In this document: one piece after another, positions 9,034 to 63,612 of the stretch
Layout of the letters: each line of letters opens with the position of its first letter
How positions within the stretch are numbered: the first letter of the stretch is position 1
Assembly (NCBI RefSeq): GCF_014695975.1
Contig: NZ_JACJPI010000084.1
Span: 124,001-188,000 of the forward strand
Origin: Leptolyngbya sp. FACHB-321
GTDB lineage: Bacteria; Cyanobacteriota; Cyanobacteriia; Leptolyngbyales; Leptolyngbyaceae
Direction: 5' to 3'
Length of the DNA: 64,000 nt
Position numbers and translations under genes: made by a program
Notes under the pieces: generated by a model
Told to the model about the DNA's origin: nothing
Database searches by the model: none
Seen by the model: the letters and a program-made list of their open reading frames with translations, nothing else

Positions 9034-9909
9034 ATGTTTCAGCGTTTAATAATCTGTACAGACTTTTCGGACGGACTGCACCGCCTCGCAAGCTTCGTGT
9101 CTAGCTTTGCAGAAGGTGGTGTGAAGCAGCTTGTCTTTTTGCATAGTGTTCCGTATGTTGAGCGCAACAACGTTCCACGGATTAATGAGGAAGGGATCAA
9201 GCAGGCACAGGAACGCTTGAGCACTGCGCTGAAAAACCTTCCTCCGGGCATTGATGTACAAGTGGAAGTCGAGTGTGGTAATCCGGTTGACTTGATCTTA
9301 AAGGTAGCTAATAAATATGCGGCAGATCTAGTGCTCACTGGCACCCCAACCCGCAGCCTTCTGGCAGAAAAATTCTTTGGTAGTACGACTGTCGCGCTGG
9401 TACAACGGTTGACAGTGCCCTTGATGGTGATGCGTCCGCAGTTGATTGCAACTTATACAGCGGAGGAATTGTCTTTGCGCTGCCGTCATCTGTGCCGCTA
9501 CTTACTAGTGCCTTACCATGGAAGTCCTGCCTCAAAGTATTTGGTGCAGCAACTGAAGCAAAGCTTTCAACCGTCGATCGAGTTACAGCTACACCTATGT
9601 TGGGTTGTGGATGGGATGCGACGGCGCGACGTGCCTACCGACCATCAGCTTGCCAGCGCACGTAAAGAACTGGAGACGATTGCCGCTGAACTAAGAACGG
9701 CAGACATAACGATCGATCCGGTCGAAGTTCGGGAAGGCGACCCACTGACAGAAGTATTGGCAGCAGCACAGGAAGCCAATGTCAGCGCGATCGTTACGTC
9801 CTCAAGCGTACCCAATAAGCTGTTGAGTTGGTCTGCACCACAGTTTACAGACGAGCTGTTGCGTCGGAGTTGGCATCCAATTATCTACTTCCCACCGTCG
9901 CGACAGTAA
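9034..9909 (+). CDS. Universal stress protein (two tandem UspA-like domains)
   Basis: MFQRLIICTDFSDGLHRLASFVSSFAEGGVKQLVFLHSVP...ADLVLTGTPTRSLLAEKFFGSTTVALVQRLTVPLMVMRP, then a second degenerate domain. Confidence 0.88.
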   Translation: MFQRLIICTDFSDGLHRLASFVSSFAEGGVKQLVFLHSVPYVERNNVPRINEEGIKQAQERLSTALKNLPPGIDVQVEVECGNPVDLILKVANKYAADLVLTGTPTRSLLAEKFFGSTTVALVQRLTVPLMVMRPQLIATYTAEELSLRCRHLCRYLLVPYHGSPASKYLVQQLKQSFQPSIELQLHLCWVVDGMRRRDVPTDHQLASARKELETIAAELRTADITIDPVEVREGDPLTEVLAAAQEANVSAIVTSSSVPNKLLSWSAPQFTDELLRRSWHPIIYFPPSRQ

Positions 9910-10042
9910 GTAGAAAGGCTAAATCAAACACCACTGAAGGACCGGGTTTCGACTGCGCTCAACCTGCCGACACGCAGGACTAAGAGCATTGAGCGAAGTC
10001 GAGATGTGTCTCTATCAATAATTACGCCCAGCGACTTAGAAG
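9909..10042. repeat. Dispersed repeat, copy 1 (lacks the inner palindrome)
   Basis: agtagaaaggctaaat...accgggtttcgactgcgctcaacctgccgacacgcaggacta...caataattacgcccagcgacttagaa; second copy at 37461-37612. Confidence 0.85.
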
Positions 10043-10299: not shown

Positions 10300-11934
10300 G
10301 TGTCTCAACCGTCTTCTCAAAAATTCACAGCGTCTGAGGCTCAGAAAGCCAAACAGTACGAATCCATGCAGGCAGAGCTACGCAAGCAGCAGCAACAGAT
10401 GGCACTGTTTGGTGAAGTGACGCTCAAAATTCGGCAGTCGCTTCAGCTCGAAGATATTTTGCATACGACTGTGACAGAGGTGCAGCGCCTTTTGCAAGTC
10501 GATCGCGTGTTGATTTACCATGTCTTACCTGATCACACTGGCAAGACCATTAGCGAGGCAGTGTCGCCAGAGTATCCGGCACTAATGCATTTAGAGTTTC
10601 CCGAAGAAGCGTTTCCTCAAGACTATCAGCAGCTTTATGCTCAAGGACGAGTGCGGACGATCGCCAACGTACGCGATCCGACCGCTGGTTTAGCGACTTG
10701 TTTAGTGAAATTTGTGGAGCAATTTGGCATCAAAGCAAAGTTAATTGTGCCGATCGTCCAGACGCTTACAGTTCAAACTCACGGTAATGCTCTTGTTCAG
10801 CAGCACCTCTGGGGTTTGTTAATTGCCCATCAATGCCAGAGCACCCGACAGTGGGTCGAGTTTGAGCGAGAGCTCATGCAACAACTGGCAGTGCATATCA
10901 GCCTTGCCCTCTCGCAAGCACAACGGCTAAAACAACTGGAAGCAGTTATAGAAGCCCGTACCGCAGACCTGCAAGCAGCTCAACACAATTTGCAGCAGGA
11001 AAGCAACGGGCGGATGCAAGCAGAAGCTGCCCTACGTCAAAACAATGAGTGCCTAGCTATCATCAGCCACGAACTGCGAACACCGCTAACCTCCTTGCAC
11101 AGTGCCCTCAAAATTTTGGCGACTGGGCGTTTAGGCAACCTCTCAGCCAAAGGGCAACAAATGCTGACGATCGCGGATGCCAGCACTGAAAGGCTTGTGC
11201 GGCTAGTCAACAACGTACTCGATTTACAGCGGATTGAGTCTGGTAACCTCATGATGCAACGACAAGCGTGTAATGCCGCCTACCTGCTCACTCAGGCAGC
11301 AGAGGCAATGCAACCGATGGCAATGCAACACGGCATTACCCTGGTGACCCAGCTAGAAGATATTTCTGTCTGGGCGGATGCTGATTACATTCTGCAAACG
11401 CTGACCAATCTACTTAGCAATGCCATCAAGTTTTCACCCCCATATGGCAAGGTCTGGTTGAGCGTTGCCCGTTCCGATGCCCTCTCTCCGTACCCTGCAC
11501 CCGCTCAGCAAAACATCTCGATGGTGGGTTCAACTGAAAGCCACGATCGTAGCCTAGACGAAACCCTACACCTCATACCCAAGCCCGTTCGGCTGCATAC
11601 TCACGCCGAAACCCAAGCCCGTTCAGCTGAGTTCATGTCGAAGCCACTCCCCACTCCCGTTCGGCTGAGCGCTCACGTCGAAGCCCACTCCCCGCTCCCT
11701 GAAGCAGTCTTCCGTATCCGTGATGAGGGGCAAGGCATCCCAGAGAATCAACTAGAACGTATTTTTGAGCGGTTCCAACAGGTCGATGCCTCCGATTCTC
11801 GCCAGAAAGGGGGCACGGGCTTAGGGTTAGCAATTTGCCGCAACGTTATTGAGCAACACAGCGGCAAGATTTGGGCTGAAAGCACCCTGGGCTGTGGCAG
11901 CACCTTTGTGTTCACCCTGCCTATGCCCAGGTAG
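10300..11934 (+). CDS. GAF (cyanobacteriochrome, green/red type) sensor histidine kinase, RcaE-like
   Basis: GTG start; bilin-GAF pattern LLQVDRVLIYHVLPD...DPTAGLATCLVKFVEQFGIKAKLIVPI...LWGLLIAHQCQSTRQW; HisKA ISHELRTPL; HATPase NAIKFSPP...DEGQGIPENQLERIFERFQQV...GGTGLGLAI. E103, C134-L135 and K147 match the spacing of the RcaE protochromic triad. Confidence 0.85.
   Translation: MSQPSSQKFTASEAQKAKQYESMQAELRKQQQQMALFGEVTLKIRQSLQLEDILHTTVTEVQRLLQVDRVLIYHVLPDHTGKTISEAVSPEYPALMHLEFPEEAFPQDYQQLYAQGRVRTIANVRDPTAGLATCLVKFVEQFGIKAKLIVPIVQTLTVQTHGNALVQQHLWGLLIAHQCQSTRQWVEFERELMQQLAVHISLALSQAQRLKQLEAVIEARTADLQAAQHNLQQESNGRMQAEAALRQNNECLAIISHELRTPLTSLHSALKILATGRLGNLSAKGQQMLTIADASTERLVRLVNNVLDLQRIESGNLMMQRQACNAAYLLTQAAEAMQPMAMQHGITLVTQLEDISVWADADYILQTLTNLLSNAIKFSPPYGKVWLSVARSDALSPYPAPAQQNISMVGSTESHDRSLDETLHLIPKPVRLHTHAETQARSAEFMSKPLPTPVRLSAHVEAHSPLPEAVFRIRDEGQGIPENQLERIFERFQQVDASDSRQKGGTGLGLAICRNVIEQHSGKIWAESTLGCGSTFVFTLPMPR
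11586..11683. repeat. Three palindromic elements in frame within the histidine kinase gene
   Basis: cgttcggctgcatactcacgccgaaa (11586-11611), cgttcagctgagttcatgtcgaag (11620-11643), cgttcggctgagcgctcacgtcgaag (11658-11683). Confidence 0.82.
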
Positions 11935-37339: not shown

Positions 37340-37460
37340 CGGGTTCTGCAACGGATGAAGGCTTACTCGTAATGAGCACCCAAATGTCCGTCCTACCATT
37401 GCTTCAGTACCCTTGCTGACCCTGTAGAAACCAGGGCTTTGAGAGTTGTTTGCAGCTTTA

Positions 37461-37612
37461 AGTAGGAAGGCTAAATTACGCATCAGAAACCGGGTTTCAA
37501 CTGCGTTCAACCCGCCGACATACAGGACTGAGAGCTTGAGACTTCGGCATGAGTGCTCAGTCGAACGTGAAGTCGAAAGGCGTCTTATCAATCATTACGC
37601 CCAGCTACTTAG
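37461..37612. repeat. Dispersed repeat, copy 2 (contains an inserted palindrome)
   Basis: Aligns to 9909-10042; extra acttcggcatgagtgctcagtcgaacgt between ttgag and gaagtcga. Confidence 0.85.
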
Positions 37613-47290: not shown

Positions 47291-47968
47291 ATGGCTAGGA
47301 GACGATTGTCAGATTTATTGCGCGAAGAAGCAAATAAACCCTCAGAGGAGGCAACGGCTGCGGCAGAAGCTAAACAATCAGCCGATAAGCCAAAAGCAGA
47401 CGCTGGGGATGCAGCAGGAGAAACGACAGCCACCATGACAGACTCAGTTCCTACTAAAGCCACTACAACGGCAAAGAGTCGGGCGACCAAACAGACTGAG
47501 GTTACAGAGCTGGACCCTGCTCCCGAACCAAAACAGGACGAAATCTTACTACAGAAGATTACAGATCTGACGGCTGCACTAGAGGCCCAAAAAGAGACGA
47601 TCGAGCAGTTGCAGACTGATTTGAAGCAGACCCGCAAAGACGCGCGCCAGCTGACAGATACTAATGTCAAACTCGCCGAAGAACTGAAGACGATCGAGCA
47701 GTTGCAGACCGATCTGAAGCAGGCTCGCAAAGACGTGCGCCAGCTGACAGATGCCAATGCCAAACTCGCCGAAGAATTGAAGACCTTACAAGCAAAAGAA
47801 ACAGCCGTAGACAATAGCACTCTTCCAGTACCAATAAAATTGGCTCCGCAAGAGTTGAAGTTGGCACCTGAGCCTGTAGCCTCTGAACGTGTTGAAGCCT
47901 CTGCACCTGTTGAAGCCTCTGCACATCCGCTTAACTCCTTTAACCGAGATGTCGGCTGGTTTGACTAA
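47291..47968 (+). CDS. Coiled-coil, low-complexity partner of ParA (McdB-like candidate)
   Basis: Basic N-terminus MARRRLSDLLREEA, Q/K-rich coiled coil, C-terminal NRDVGWFD; directly downstream of parA. Confidence 0.7.
   Translation: MARRRLSDLLREEANKPSEEATAAAEAKQSADKPKADAGDAAGETTATMTDSVPTKATTTAKSRATKQTEVTELDPAPEPKQDEILLQKITDLTAALEAQKETIEQLQTDLKQTRKDARQLTDTNVKLAEELKTIEQLQTDLKQARKDVRQLTDANAKLAEELKTLQAKETAVDNSTLPVPIKLAPQELKLAPEPVASERVEASAPVEASAHPLNSFNRDVGWFD
47597..47782. repeat. 93-bp tandem duplication (31 aa) in coiled-coil gene
   Basis: TIEQLQTDLKQTRKDARQLTDTNVKLAEELK / TIEQLQTDLKQARKDVRQLTDANAKLAEELK, units 47597-47689 and 47690-47782. Confidence 0.93.
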
Positions 47969-57287: not shown

Positions 57288-59168
57288 ATGTCGAATCTCT
57301 TCTTGAAATCTCTGCTAGTTAGCCCCGCAGTTCTTGCTGCTGCTCTGGCAGTGTCTACATCCGCGATTGCAACTGAAGCTAAAGCAACAAACGATGTTGT
57401 GCAGTCTCAAGCTTCAGCCCTTCAGCCTCTTTCACTGGCTGCTGCGCCACAGATTGCTGCACCAGAAGTATCTGCTTCAGATGTTGCACCGATTGCGTCT
57501 GATCATGCGGTCACCAGCTTAGAGCCAAAAGCTTTACCTGCACCAGTAGAAGTTGCACAAGCAGCTCCCGCAGCCTCTGAGCCTGCTCTTTCTGAGTCGC
57601 CCTCGAACTCTCTGAATCAAATCAATCGGTATACCCGCGAAGGTCGTACCTCAAATGCTCAAGTAACTTCGGTTTCTCAACTTTCTGATGTTCAGCCAAC
57701 CGATTGGGCATTCCAAGCGTTGCAATCGTTGGTCGAGCGCTACGGTTGTATTGCTGGTTATCCTGACCGTACCTACCGTGGTAATCGTGCTACCACCCGT
57801 TACGAGTTTGCGGCTGGCTTAAATGCCTGCCTTGATCGCGTCAATGAACTCATTGCTGCTGGCACTGCCGATTTGGTGAAGAAAGAAGACTTGGCTGTGC
57901 TGCAAAAGCTACAGGAAGAGTTTGCGGCTGAATTGGCAACCCTTCGTGGTCGCGTTGATTCTCTAGAAGCTCGGACAGCAACCCTTGAGAAGCAACAGTT
58001 CTCAACTACCACCAAGCTTTCGGGTGAAGTAATCTTCGCTATCACCGACGAGTTCGGTCAGCCAAGAAGCAACGAGACTGTGTTCCAGGACCGGGTTCGT
58101 TTAGCTCTCAACACCAGCTTTACGGGTAAAGACTTGCTGGTCACTCGTCTTGCGGCTGGTAACTTTAGATCTTTCAACCTTGGAGATGACTTCTCAGGCG
58201 TTGGTTTACAGACATTCCAGTTTGGTAGTACAAATAACAACCAAGTCTTCGCTGACTGGGTTGCTTACTACTTCCCATTGGGTGAAAAGATTAGTGTTTA
58301 TGTTCCAGCCTTCGCAGGTCTGCAATATGACTACGCCCCTACTCAGTCAGGTCTGATGGAAGGCTTTGATGGTGGTTCTGGACCACTTAGCGTTTTTGCT
58401 CAACGCAACCCAATTTACAACATTGGTGGTGGTTCAGGTCTTGGTGTGAACTTTGACCTTACCAACAACTTCAAGATCAGCCTTGGTTATTTGGCAGACA
58501 ACTCCACTTTGAACGCAGAGGGCGGAACTCTTCAGCCACCAGCGGCTGCTTTTGGAGCGAATAACCCTGCTGAGAAGAACGGTTTGTTCAACGGTAGCTA
58601 CTCCGCTTTGGCTCAAGTTGCCTTCAATACTGATTTCTTCTCCATTGGTCTCACCTACGTGAATGCGTATCGTCGTGGTGCGATCTTTGACACCGGTAGC
58701 GGTGGTGCAGTTGTGGGTACAAGCCTGGCAAACCTAGCGTTTCTTAACCCCAATGGCACATTCACATCATCTCGAGTGAATGCTTACGGTATTTCAGGGT
58801 CGATTAACCTTGGCAGAAATATCTCGGTAAATGCCTTTGGTTCGTACATCGAAGCTGATAAAGTGGGCGATGGTTTTGATGCGGGCGATATCTGGACTTA
58901 TGGTATCGGTCTTGCCTTTGCTGATTTTGGCAAAAAGGGAAACCTGCTGGGTCTAATGGCAGGTGTTGAACCTTATCTGGGCAACAGCCAACAGCTTGGT
59001 CGTGGGACAGGAAACTCTGAGCCAATCCACCTTGAGGCGTTCTACAGATATCAGTTGACTGATAATATTTCTATTACGCCTGGTGTTATCTACGTGATTA
59101 ACCCTGGTCAAGTCAACAACAGCTCAGACATCTTCATTGGTACTTTGAGAACGACCTTTACGTTCTAA
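57288..59168 (+). CDS. SLH-domain porin, copy 1
   Basis: Signal peptide, SLH block VTSVSQLSDVQPTDWAFQALQSLVERYGCIAGYPDRTYRGNRATTRYEFAAGLNACLDRVNEL, coiled coil, beta-barrel ending in TFTF. Confidence 0.93.
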   Translation: MSNLFLKSLLVSPAVLAAALAVSTSAIATEAKATNDVVQSQASALQPLSLAAAPQIAAPEVSASDVAPIASDHAVTSLEPKALPAPVEVAQAAPAASEPALSESPSNSLNQINRYTREGRTSNAQVTSVSQLSDVQPTDWAFQALQSLVERYGCIAGYPDRTYRGNRATTRYEFAAGLNACLDRVNELIAAGTADLVKKEDLAVLQKLQEEFAAELATLRGRVDSLEARTATLEKQQFSTTTKLSGEVIFAITDEFGQPRSNETVFQDRVRLALNTSFTGKDLLVTRLAAGNFRSFNLGDDFSGVGLQTFQFGSTNNNQVFADWVAYYFPLGEKISVYVPAFAGLQYDYAPTQSGLMEGFDGGSGPLSVFAQRNPIYNIGGGSGLGVNFDLTNNFKISLGYLADNSTLNAEGGTLQPPAAAFGANNPAEKNGLFNGSYSALAQVAFNTDFFSIGLTYVNAYRRGAIFDTGSGGAVVGTSLANLAFLNPNGTFTSSRVNAYGISGSINLGRNISVNAFGSYIEADKVGDGFDAGDIWTYGIGLAFADFGKKGNLLGLMAGVEPYLGNSQQLGRGTGNSEPIHLEAFYRYQLTDNISITPGVIYVINPGQVNNSSDIFIGTLRTTFTF

Positions 59169-59178
59169 CTCTATACAG

Positions 59179-59220
59179 AAAGCCTCCCTGCACTAGTTGC
59201 AGAGGCTTTTGTACCGTTAA
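59179..59220. terminator. Hairpin after porin 1
   Basis: aagcctccctgcactagttgcagaggctttt. Confidence 0.7.
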
Positions 59221-59225
59221 CTTTG

Positions 59226-59258
59226 AAAGCTCTCCCTTTACACGGAGAGCTTTTTTTA
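59226..59258 (+). terminator. Rho-independent terminator after porin 1
   Basis: aaagctctccctttacacggagagcttttttt. Confidence 0.85.
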
Positions 59259-59602
59259 TGGTTTTCTTGTTTGTAACAATCTTTACCAGCTTTATGTGAT
59301 GATTTTTACTGAAAACCTTAAGAGTTTACCTTTCTAAAACAAGTGCTAGAAAATAACCAGGGAAATAGTGTATATATTTAAAGTCCTGTTAACCATCGTC
59401 CCTAATAATCAGTAGAGAAGGTCGGTAGTACTATCCAACAGAGTGGTATTGCAGATTGCAAAATCGTCTCTTGAGTGACCCTTCTAAACCATTACTTTTG
59501 TTGAGGTTTCTAGCTTCTCTTTGAATCAGAGAAGTTGTCGAGGAACAGCGCGTTGATGAGTAATGTGGACGGTCTGTAAACGGAATCTTTTGTCTTTAAG
59601 GT

Positions 59603-61426
59603 GTGAGTGTGAAAGCAATGATGTCAAGAAAATTTTGGAAGCCTTTGTTGGCAGTCCCTTCTCTTTTGGGTGCAACGATCGCAGTATCTGCAATCGCAGC
59701 GACAAGCGTTGCCGCTAATGCTGCTGAAACAGCAACCGTATCAGTGTCTTCAGTAGAAGCTGCAGAGCCTGTAGTGGAAGCATCAGCAGCTCCTGTGGAA
59801 ACGACAACGATTGCTGACGCAACGATCGCTAACGCAGCACCAGCGCCAACGCAGTCTGCTACAACAGCGTCAGCTCAAGAAAATGAGGCTACTGCTGATT
59901 TAGCAGCGACAGGGATTGCAGGTCAAGTGACATCTGTTTCTCAGTTGTCAGACGTGCAGCCGACCGACTGGGCTTTCCAAGCACTGCAATCGCTGGTTGA
60001 GCGCTATGGCTGTATTGTTGGTTATCCTGATCGCACCTATCGTGGCAATCGGGCACTGACTCGGTATGAGTTTGCCGCTGGCTTAAATGCTTGCATGGAT
60101 CGGATCAACGAGTTGATTGCTGCAGGCACCGCTGATCTAGTCAAAAAAGAAGACCTCTTAGCAGTTCAAAAGCTGCAAGAAGAATTTGCGGCTGAACTAG
60201 CCACGCTGCGCGGTCGTGTCGATGCGGTAGAAGCACGGACAGCAACGCTGGAGAAGCAGCAATTCTCCACCACCACCAAGCTGGTTGGTGAAGCCATCTT
60301 TACGATCGCAGACACCTTCGGCGATAGCGCAACTAGAACCGGTAATGGCACCCTGATTCCTGGAACAACCGAGAACGACAACACAGAAACCATCTTTGCC
60401 GATCGTGTTCGTCTTAACCTAGACAGCAGCTTTACTGGTAAAGATCAGTTGCGGATTCGCTTGCAGGCACGCAACATCACGCCTTTTTCGGGTGCTGCCT
60501 TTACTGGAACGAATGAAACGCGGTTAGGTTTTGATGGCAACAACTCAAACTCTCTTGAAGTCAGTAAGGTCTTCTACCGTTTTGCTCTCAGCAACAACTT
60601 TAGATTGCAGGTTGATGCAGTCGGCAATGAGTTTTACAACGGTCTTGTTAGTACCCTAAGCCCCTTCACAAGCAGTGGTAATGGCGCACTGTCGCGTTTT
60701 GGACGGTTTAGCCCTATCTACCGGAGCAATGCAAACGGCGCTGGTTTTACGTTTGAGTACAAGTTTAGCGATTTTCTCGCTCTTCAAGGTGGCTATATTG
60801 CTGACACCCTTAGCAACGACCCAACTCCAACAAATGGTCTTTTCAACGGGGCTTACACTGCTTTAGGGCAGGTCGTTCTCAAACCCAGCAGAGCTCTTGA
60901 AGTCGCGCTGACCTATGCTCGCTCTTACTACCCTGGTAACGAGGTCAACATCACCTCAAGTACTGGTAGTGGGTATGCGTCTAACCCCTTTGCTTCCAGT
61001 GCAGCGATTCGTCGAGCCACATCATCTGATGCATTTGGTGTGCAGGCGCAGTTCCGCCTCAGCCCTAAATTTATTGTTGGTGGCTGGTTTGGCTACACCA
61101 AAGCCTATCAAGCTGGGAATGCAAATGAAGCCGATGTTCTTAACGGTTCTGTCTTCTTAGCCTTCCCCGACCTGGGCAAGAAAGGCAACTTGGGCGGCAT
61201 CATCGTGGGTATTCCACCGAAAGTTACTGGCAACGACTTTATTGCTGCTAATGGGCTGCGCCGCATTGATGACGACACCACATACCATGTAGAAGCGCTG
61301 TACCGCTACCGTGTGACCAACAACATTGCGATTACACCTGGTGTCATCGTTATCTTCAACCCAGAAGGAAACAACGACAACGCAACACAATATGTTGGCG
61401 TGATTCGGACAACCTTCTCGTTCTAG
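59603..61426 (+). CDS. SLH-domain porin, copy 2
   Basis: Same SLH block (GCIVGYPDRTYRGNRALTRYEFAAGLNACMDRINEL) and barrel C-terminus TTFSF. Confidence 0.93.
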   Translation: MSVKAMMSRKFWKPLLAVPSLLGATIAVSAIAATSVAANAAETATVSVSSVEAAEPVVEASAAPVETTTIADATIANAAPAPTQSATTASAQENEATADLAATGIAGQVTSVSQLSDVQPTDWAFQALQSLVERYGCIVGYPDRTYRGNRALTRYEFAAGLNACMDRINELIAAGTADLVKKEDLLAVQKLQEEFAAELATLRGRVDAVEARTATLEKQQFSTTTKLVGEAIFTIADTFGDSATRTGNGTLIPGTTENDNTETIFADRVRLNLDSSFTGKDQLRIRLQARNITPFSGAAFTGTNETRLGFDGNNSNSLEVSKVFYRFALSNNFRLQVDAVGNEFYNGLVSTLSPFTSSGNGALSRFGRFSPIYRSNANGAGFTFEYKFSDFLALQGGYIADTLSNDPTPTNGLFNGAYTALGQVVLKPSRALEVALTYARSYYPGNEVNITSSTGSGYASNPFASSAAIRRATSSDAFGVQAQFRLSPKFIVGGWFGYTKAYQAGNANEADVLNGSVFLAFPDLGKKGNLGGIIVGIPPKVTGNDFIAANGLRRIDDDTTYHVEALYRYRVTNNIAITPGVIVIFNPEGNNDNATQYVGVIRTTFSF

Positions 61427-61457
61427 TGAGCTAAAAGCTCAGGTTAATAAATAAACT

Positions 61458-61483
61458 AAGCCCCGTCGCGACGGGGCTTTTTT
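61458..61483 (+). terminator. Rho-independent terminator after porin 2
   Basis: aagccccgtcgcgacggggctttttt. Confidence 0.93.
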
Positions 61484-61731
61484 CATGCATCAGTTGCTTA
61501 TAGGAATGCAATACATATAGCTAAAGGATAAAGGATGAATAGAAGCTCCTGCTCAAAGGAGGTCTTAAGGTTCAAGCCTGTCCTAACGTTCTCTTTGGCT
61601 GCTATAAAAGCATAATCATCAAAAAGCACCTAAGCTTCGAGCTTTTTTGCTTAAGTCAGTGTAAAATCTGACGAGTTGAAAAAAACTCATTCGATGGGTT
61701 CTTTCAGCAGCTTTTAAGTAGGATTTGTCTC

Positions 61732-63612
61732 TTGAGTGTGAGGTGTGTGGGAATGAAAGAAATGATGTCAAAACAGTTTTGGAAGCCTTTACTAACAACT
61801 CCAGCGCTTCTGAGTACTGCTGTTGTTATTTCTACGATCGCAGGTACAACGTCGGCTGTAAAAGCGACGGAAACGATTGCTAGCGAGACTCAAACTCTAA
61901 CTGCATCGGCGCGTTCTGAAAGTCCCGCGCTTACAGCGGACGCTTCAGCCGTAACAGCTCAGCCTGTTGCATCAACAGCCCCTGTGAATCAACTGTCGGT
62001 TTACAGCGCTGAAGGTAAAGTTGAACCCGATGGTGTGAGTCAGGTGACATCTGTTTCTCAGTTGTCAGACGTGCAGCCAACTGACTGGGCTTTCCAAGCA
62101 CTGCAATCGCTGGTTGAGCGCTATGGCTGTATTGTTGGTTATCCCGATCGCACCTATCGCGGCAACCGAGCGCTGACTCGGTATGAGTTTGCTGCTGGCT
62201 TAAATGCTTGCATGGATCGAATTAACGAATTGATTGCTGCTGGCACAGCTGATCTGGCTAAGAAAGAAGATTTGCTAGCAATCCAAAAACTGCAAGAAGA
62301 ATTTGCGGCTGAATTGGCGACCTTGCGTGGTCGTGTCGATGCGGTAGAAGCACGAACAGCAACGCTTGAGAAGCAGCAATTCTCCACCACCACTAGGTTG
62401 GTTGGTGAAGCCATCTTTACAATCGCAGATGCGTTTGGTGATTTCCCACAGCAAGGAGGCACTAATACTGTCTTTAACGATCGCATTCGCTTAAACTTGC
62501 TGACGAGCTTTACAGGCAAAGATCGCTTGAGAGTACGCCTTCAAGCTGGTAACGCGACACGACTGCTCAGCAATCCCAGCATTCCTAACGCGCAAAATAA
62601 CTACCAGCGTACTAACGAAGGGAACTTACCCTATGACGGTGGTAACCCTGCTGCTGATGGCACAGTCACCGACCCAAACAATAGCGGCAATGCAGTCGCT
62701 TTGGAAGCACTCGATTACCGCTTCCCCATTGGCAACAATATCTTTGCGAACGTTTTTGCGAATGGTGCGTTGCACCACTACTATGCTGATACAGTCAACC
62801 CCTTCTTTGAAGGTAATGGCGGCGGTCAGAACGCACTGTCGCGTTTTGCTGAACGGAACCCAATCTACCGCATTGGACCCTTGGGCGCAGGGGTTGGGTT
62901 TAACGTTAAGTTTAGCAATAGCCTCAAGCTCGACCTTGGCTACATTTCTAACACTGCCAGCAACCCTGGACCTGATGCCGGTCTCTTTAATGGCAACTAC
63001 TCAGCGTTGGCGCAGTTGGTCTTTAACACGGGCGGCTTCAAGCTTGGTTTAACTTATGTACGGGGTTACGAGCGTAATACTCCTGGGCTGACGGCTGGTA
63101 ACAACTTCAACCTGGGTGGTACGGGTACAACGTTTGCCAACCTAAACAATAATTCCCTTTTGAGGGGACGATCGTTTCCAGTTGAAAGCAACTCGTTTGG
63201 TGTGGAAGCATCTTTTCAGCCAACCTCCAGCATCGTTGTCAACGGTTGGCTAGGCTATAGTGACGCGAATATCATTGGTCTAGGTGACGCAGATATCTGG
63301 AACTTTGCAGTTGCAGTTGGCTTCCCCAACCTGGGTAAGAAAGGCAACTTCTTGGGTATTGTTGCTGGGGCAGAACCAACATTGAGGGGCACTGATTTTG
63401 ACCCTGTTAACTTGAGTCCAGCCTTCGCTAGCAGAAGTCAGGATTTTGCTTACCACATCGAAGTTTTCTACAAGTACCAACTTACAGACAACATTTCGAT
63501 TACTCCCGGTGTGATTTATCTCCCCAGTGTCAACCAAAATGCAGGCATTCCTGGAGACAACTCCAACGCAGATGTCTTTATTGGAGTTTTACGCACAACC
63601 TTTACGTTCTAG
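61732..63612 (+). CDS. SLH-domain porin, copy 3
   Basis: Same SLH block and C-terminal TTFTF. Start may be the downstream ATG (MKEMMSKQFWKPL or MMSKQFWKPL). Confidence 0.93.
   Translation: MSVRCVGMKEMMSKQFWKPLLTTPALLSTAVVISTIAGTTSAVKATETIASETQTLTASARSESPALTADASAVTAQPVASTAPVNQLSVYSAEGKVEPDGVSQVTSVSQLSDVQPTDWAFQALQSLVERYGCIVGYPDRTYRGNRALTRYEFAAGLNACMDRINELIAAGTADLAKKEDLLAIQKLQEEFAAELATLRGRVDAVEARTATLEKQQFSTTTRLVGEAIFTIADAFGDFPQQGGTNTVFNDRIRLNLLTSFTGKDRLRVRLQAGNATRLLSNPSIPNAQNNYQRTNEGNLPYDGGNPAADGTVTDPNNSGNAVALEALDYRFPIGNNIFANVFANGALHHYYADTVNPFFEGNGGGQNALSRFAERNPIYRIGPLGAGVGFNVKFSNSLKLDLGYISNTASNPGPDAGLFNGNYSALAQLVFNTGGFKLGLTYVRGYERNTPGLTAGNNFNLGGTGTTFANLNNNSLLRGRSFPVESNSFGVEASFQPTSSIVVNGWLGYSDANIIGLGDADIWNFAVAVGFPNLGKKGNFLGIVAGAEPTLRGTDFDPVNLSPAFASRSQDFAYHIEVFYKYQLTDNISITPGVIYLPSVNQNAGIPGDNSNADVFIGVLRTTFTF

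Follow-up and report, generated by a model that had tools for sequence, protein, structure and literature searches.

The window, by which we mean the entire 64,000-nt stretch of Leptolyngbya sp. FACHB-321 DNA under study, contains two copies of a dispersed repeat, a histidine kinase gene, and a family of short palindromes found both in that gene and in one copy of the repeat (Table 1). The outer dispersed repeat is MITE-like and about 131 nt long, with inverted ends TAAGTAG...CTACTTA, which are present in most copies, and two internal hairpins, H1 (GGGTTTCGACTGCGCTCAACCC) and H2 (GCATTGAGCGAAGTCGAAATGC). About 40 alignable copies occur in the 6.7-Mb genome: searches with copy 1 and copy 2 as queries returned 44 and 49 matches, respectively, and the resulting alignment holds 43 records, of which about 40 are distinct and usable. 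A target-site duplication of the outer repeat would be TA at most and is inseparable from the repeat ends. The copies in the window are the same elements as those in the preliminary description, with their ends refined to the positions in Table 1. Two other repeats were observed in the window, one consisting of two tandem copies of a 93-nt sequence (47595-47780; a multiple of three, 90% identical) and the other of three spaced copies of a 300-nt sequence (57658-62338; 77-90% identical) that looks like repeated genes.

Table 1. Positions of the repeat copies, palindromic units, and kinase gene in the window.
Feature	Position	Strand	Evidence
Copy 1 of the outer repeat, H2 site empty	9907..10038	+	ends TAAGTAG...GACTTA; alignment to about 40 genome copies
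First internal hairpin (H1) GGGTTTCGACTGCGCTCAACC in copy 1	9944..9964	+	sequence and alignment
Empty target TTGAGCGAAGTCGA in second internal hairpin (H2), copy 1	9989..10002	+	alignment
GAF-HisKA-HATPase_c histidine kinase gene	10300..11934	+	domain matches
Related unit in kinase gene, degenerate core	11586..11611	+	sequence, model match
Related unit in kinase gene, degenerate 24-nt form	11620..11643	+	model match
27-nt unit, type G.T, within CCCACTC-type heptamer array of kinase gene	11658..11684	+	pattern match
Copy 2 of the outer repeat, H2 site filled	37459..37611	+	alignment
Left half of interrupted target, TTGAG	37536..37540	+	sequence, alignment
Inserted 27-nt palindromic unit, type A.C, bottom strand CGTTCGACTGAGCACTCATGCCGAAGT	37541..37567	-	sequence, alignment
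Right half of interrupted target, (C)GAAGTCGA, C-to-T at 37568	37568..37576	+	sequence, alignment

A filled and an empty H2 site

At the H2 site, copy 1 reads TTGAG|CGAAGTCGA, the whole uninterrupted target being TTGAGCGAAGTCGA, and copy 2 reads TTGAG followed by ACTTCGGCATGAGTGCTCAGTCGAACG (37541-37567) and TGAAGTCGA. The 27 extra nucleotides of copy 2 thus lie exactly at the uninterrupted position of copy 1, in agreement with the original reading of these copies as a filled and an empty site. The difference had been given as 28 nt versus 1 nt; the net gain of 27 nt stands, and the event is better described as a clean 27-nt insertion plus a C-to-T change at 37568, with C retained at the equivalent position in several filled copies. 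Copy 2 scores as +26 in the alignment only because one upstream base is also missing. No target duplication was found beyond one ambiguous C.

As had been proposed, the inserted piece matches the kinase-gene palindrome in reverse complement, with 4 mismatches over 26 positions, and the insert and the kinase-gene palindromes form one family. The three units in the kinase gene sit in a hypervariable linker, and none of 11 aligned homologues has them. Such matches are rare by chance: two unit matches (≤3 mismatches) were found in the window and none in 100 shuffles, and the 6.7-Mb genome holds 16 matches, with none for the reversed pattern.

Across the 38 outer-repeat copies used for a tree, H2 was empty in 12 and filled in 26, and H1 was empty in every aligned copy from this genome. 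Eight of the filled copies carry a single 27-nt unit at one H2 position. Net inserts of 56 nt (L024 and L031) consist of the 27-nt unit interrupted at its TGAGC^GCTCA by a 29-nt unit, TTTCGACCTGAGCGCTCAAGCCGAAGGGC, and deeper nesting in other copies produces inserts of 67-99 nt with hairpins within hairpins; some of these nested states look inherited. The few shorter inserts are compatible with later deletions between TCGAA repeats (L010 and L052, minus about 12 nt). The tree was star-like, with the filled and empty labels unclustered (10 changes versus a shuffled mean of 10.4), so that the number of H2 insertion events cannot be read from it.

The hairpin core is inverted in 4 of the 12 copies that are empty at H2. 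With the stems conserved, cores of either orientation were observed for H2 (L022, L027, L032, and L047) and for H1 (L052), a pattern resembling flips caused by template switching.

Structure, spread, and insertion sites of the 27-nt unit

The unit has the form of an imperfect single hairpin, TTCGRC-TGAGCGCTCA-C-GYCGAA. Among 145 flanked copies, 72 are of the type AG^[CGTTCGACTGAGCGCTCACGCCGAAGT]^CT, 51 are of the type C^[CGTTCGGCTGAGCGCTCACGTCGAAGC]^C, and 9, from other cyanobacteria, are a 25-nt variant with a TGAGCTCA core. There are two subfamilies, in which the internal bases, the last base, and the flanks are coupled. The pair at positions 7/21 is A.C, G.T, G.C, or A.T, and in the AG^CT type the variable internal pair forms its G-T wobble on the bottom strand, the C^C type having it on the top strand. 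Folding energies of the single 26-nt hairpin were no better than those of shuffled sequences, with the exception of the C-type unit (z -3.2).

A covariance model found 18 units in this genome at E below 1e-5 and at least one (E≤0.001) in 21 of 194 genomes sampled from the phylum, with the highest count, 27 matches, in genome G062. An exact degenerate pattern matched at least 119 stretches in GTDB genome contigs, and the 80 matches listed with their taxonomy are nearly all from Cyanobacteria. The sole non-cyanobacterial record among the matches listed is an exact unit in a contig of a Phycisphaerae MAG (L170), which may reflect transfer or mis-binning. Plasmid matches were mainly cyanobacterial, with one partial match on a Streptomyces plasmid. 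The phage sequences searched contained no match, and no curated Rfam family matched the unit. Solitary units are common across Cyanobacteria and often lie in C/T-rich heptamer arrays. In another genome, a unit lies inside a unit of its own family at GAGCG^CTCA (L121), and in a genome of another genus (G214) a relative of the outer repeat (L270) has the unit in H1 and an empty H2.

We used the heptamer arrays and a protein-coding gene to distinguish insertion from divergence. For 22 heptamer-flanked copies, excision of 27 nt gave a lag-7 identity of 0.81, against 0.17-0.38 for other lengths, with the alias length of 34 (27 + 7) giving 0.80. Over unselected loci the peak at 27 was weak (0.41), which would be expected with most copies located away from heptamers, and other lags peaked at other lengths; the register argument thus rests on the selected subset of 22. 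The gene is egtB-like (DinB_2 and FGE-sulfatase domains) and in this genome reads CTCCCCACTCCCCACTCC[27 nt]CCACTCCCCACTCCCC, which amounts to nine extra codons in frame. A congener (L283) has identical flanks, CTCCCCACTCCCCACTCC and CCACTCCCCACTCCCC, without interruption, and the nine codons were absent from all five congeners compared (L283 and four others). The unit therefore arises by discrete insertion, without target duplication beyond one ambiguous C. Continuous divergence among genomic copies, named in the preliminary description as the observation that would count against insertion, was not seen.

In-frame units were found in the egtB-like gene and the kinase, in a variable linker in both cases. 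The unit is open in four of the six frames, and a 27-nt insertion can therefore pass through a gene. This agrees with the earlier idea that the family enters reading frames without a frameshift in so far as the 27-nt form adds nine codons; the broader idea that insert length is always 3n is refuted by the 25-nt variants and by the 29-nt nested unit. Because these other lengths exist and most outer-repeat copies are non-coding, frame preservation seems to be a by-product and not a rule. The length of 27 nt looks like a structural one that equals nine codons by coincidence.

Probable origin and movement of the unit

The unit inserts exactly and discretely, nests within its own family, prefers particular sites, and is present at some orthologous sites and absent from others. 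We consider the 27-nt piece to be, very probably, a mobile small dispersed repeat whose clean insertions favour certain short sites. One kind of site would be the centre of another hairpin (CG^CTCA and AG^CT), including hairpins of the unit's own family, and the other kind would be a heptamer array rich in pyrimidines (C^C). The insertion in copy 2 would have hit H2 of a MITE-like element.

One alternative is that the unit is a REP element that depends on a RAYT (TnpA-REP) for its movement, as REPINs do. The hairpin is of similar size, the lack of target duplication recalls single-strand transposition of the IS200/IS605 type, and this genome, with nine Y1-transposase matches, encodes one clear RAYT (215.6 bits). 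The search for such an enzyme, which the preliminary description had recommended, thus had a positive outcome, yet the RAYT is adjoined by a different REP. Its gene (L093, G000:C61:32174-32896) has inverted GTAG-type REPs on both sides (GTAGGTTGGGTTGAG..CGAAACCCAAC), these two being the only exact copies; as a separate observation, H1 of the outer repeat is similar to their core, GGGTTGAG..CGAAACCC. All nine Y1 matches are free of the unit to a distance of about 1.5 kb, and in 5 of the 21 unit-bearing genomes (G091 with 8 units, G125 with 5, G058 with 4, G121, and G018) no RAYT exceeds the curated cut-off; some match at E≤0.001 occurs in all unit-bearing genomes. For these reasons a REP/RAYT origin is unsupported. 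In addition, flank and end composition revealed neither a GTAG nor a CGTC tag at a fixed end of the unit's hairpin, and units often occur in tandem arrays and inside hairpins instead of in paired doublets. We regard a RAYT as an unlikely mover of the unit. Mobilisation by a divergent enzyme is possible.

It is also conceivable, and in our view very improbable, that the filled form is ancestral and that the empty copies lost 27 nt by slippage between TCGAA or similar repeats. L010 and L052 seem to have undergone secondary deletions between copies of TCGAA, label shuffling on the star-like tree is compatible with loss, and the empty egtB-like state in the congeners could in principle be a loss. 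However, that empty site is common to all five congeners, the unit also occurs alone outside the outer repeat and in H1 of the relative L270, and empty sites show a small palindrome or a heptamer array in unbroken form. Such an unbroken array argues for gain over loss. Hairpin-templated replication errors (template switching), which would copy short palindromes locally with no dedicated mobile element, are consistent with the two orientations of the hairpin cores in the outer repeat but are a most improbable source of the unit, because errors of this local sort do not scatter a single exact sequence, and here a fixed 26-nt sequence is exact in many genera at unrelated loci with subfamily-specific flanks.

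Movement of a mobile 27-nt repeat may involve a hairpin intermediate of single-stranded DNA or RNA on which some enzyme acts in trans. The one-strand G-T wobble, the lack of target duplication, and the preference for hairpin tops all point to such an intermediate. More tentatively, and as a possibility rather than a probability, the unit could be a phylum-wide, protein-free 27-nt hairpin transposon moved by an unrecognised non-RAYT enzyme, with the two subfamilies differing in the folded strand (G-T wobble on opposite strands) and, in step with it, in the insertion context (AG^CT versus C^C).

Relation to known repeats and significance

Short tandemly repeated heptamers (STRR) are known in cyanobacteria and are the host sequence of many solitary units, that is, the target and not the mover. 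The small dispersed repeats SDR1-SDR8, reportedly described in cyanobacteria by Elhai and colleagues in 2008, are said to be hairpin-forming sequences of 21-27 nt, embedded in heptamer arrays and minitransposons, with two families nested in their own copies and with a distribution largely confined to one cyanobacterial subgroup. The 27-nt unit fits this description in its length and many dispersed loci, its heptamer arrays, minitransposon host, and self-nesting, and its near-confinement to Cyanobacteria (the Phycisphaerae MAG and Streptomyces plasmid matches excepted). Because these features match, we file the unit as a member of the SDR kind, and it may be one of the named SDR families. The two subfamilies with different insertion contexts, the 25-nt variant, the 29-nt nesting partner, and the orthologous filled and empty coding sites go beyond that description.

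Cyanobacterial small dispersed repeats are cited in three papers (PMC3116915, PMC3733652, and PMC4390886), and PMC4390886 cites an SDR5 inserted precisely within the HIP1 octamer. REPs and REPINs with their RAYTs (PMC3116915, PMC3733652, PMC6006769) share with the unit a short imperfect hairpin, high dispersion, and possible single-strand mobility; unlike them, the unit has no GTAG/CGTC tag, is not associated with this genome's RAYT, and nests in hairpins and tandem arrays. The outer repeat resembles Nezha-like cyanobacterial MITEs, with inverted ends TAAGTAGG.GGGC / GCCC..CTACTTA, whereas the 27-nt unit lacks comparable terminal repeats.

At this length, the elements are among the smallest apparently mobile DNA sequences. 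The filled and empty orthologous sites, the two subfamilies with their different insertion contexts, and the high-copy genome G062 provide material for finding the enzyme and a means to decide between a DNA and an RNA intermediate. The unit also shows a route by which protein linkers gain short peptides (RSAERSRRS and its frame variants).
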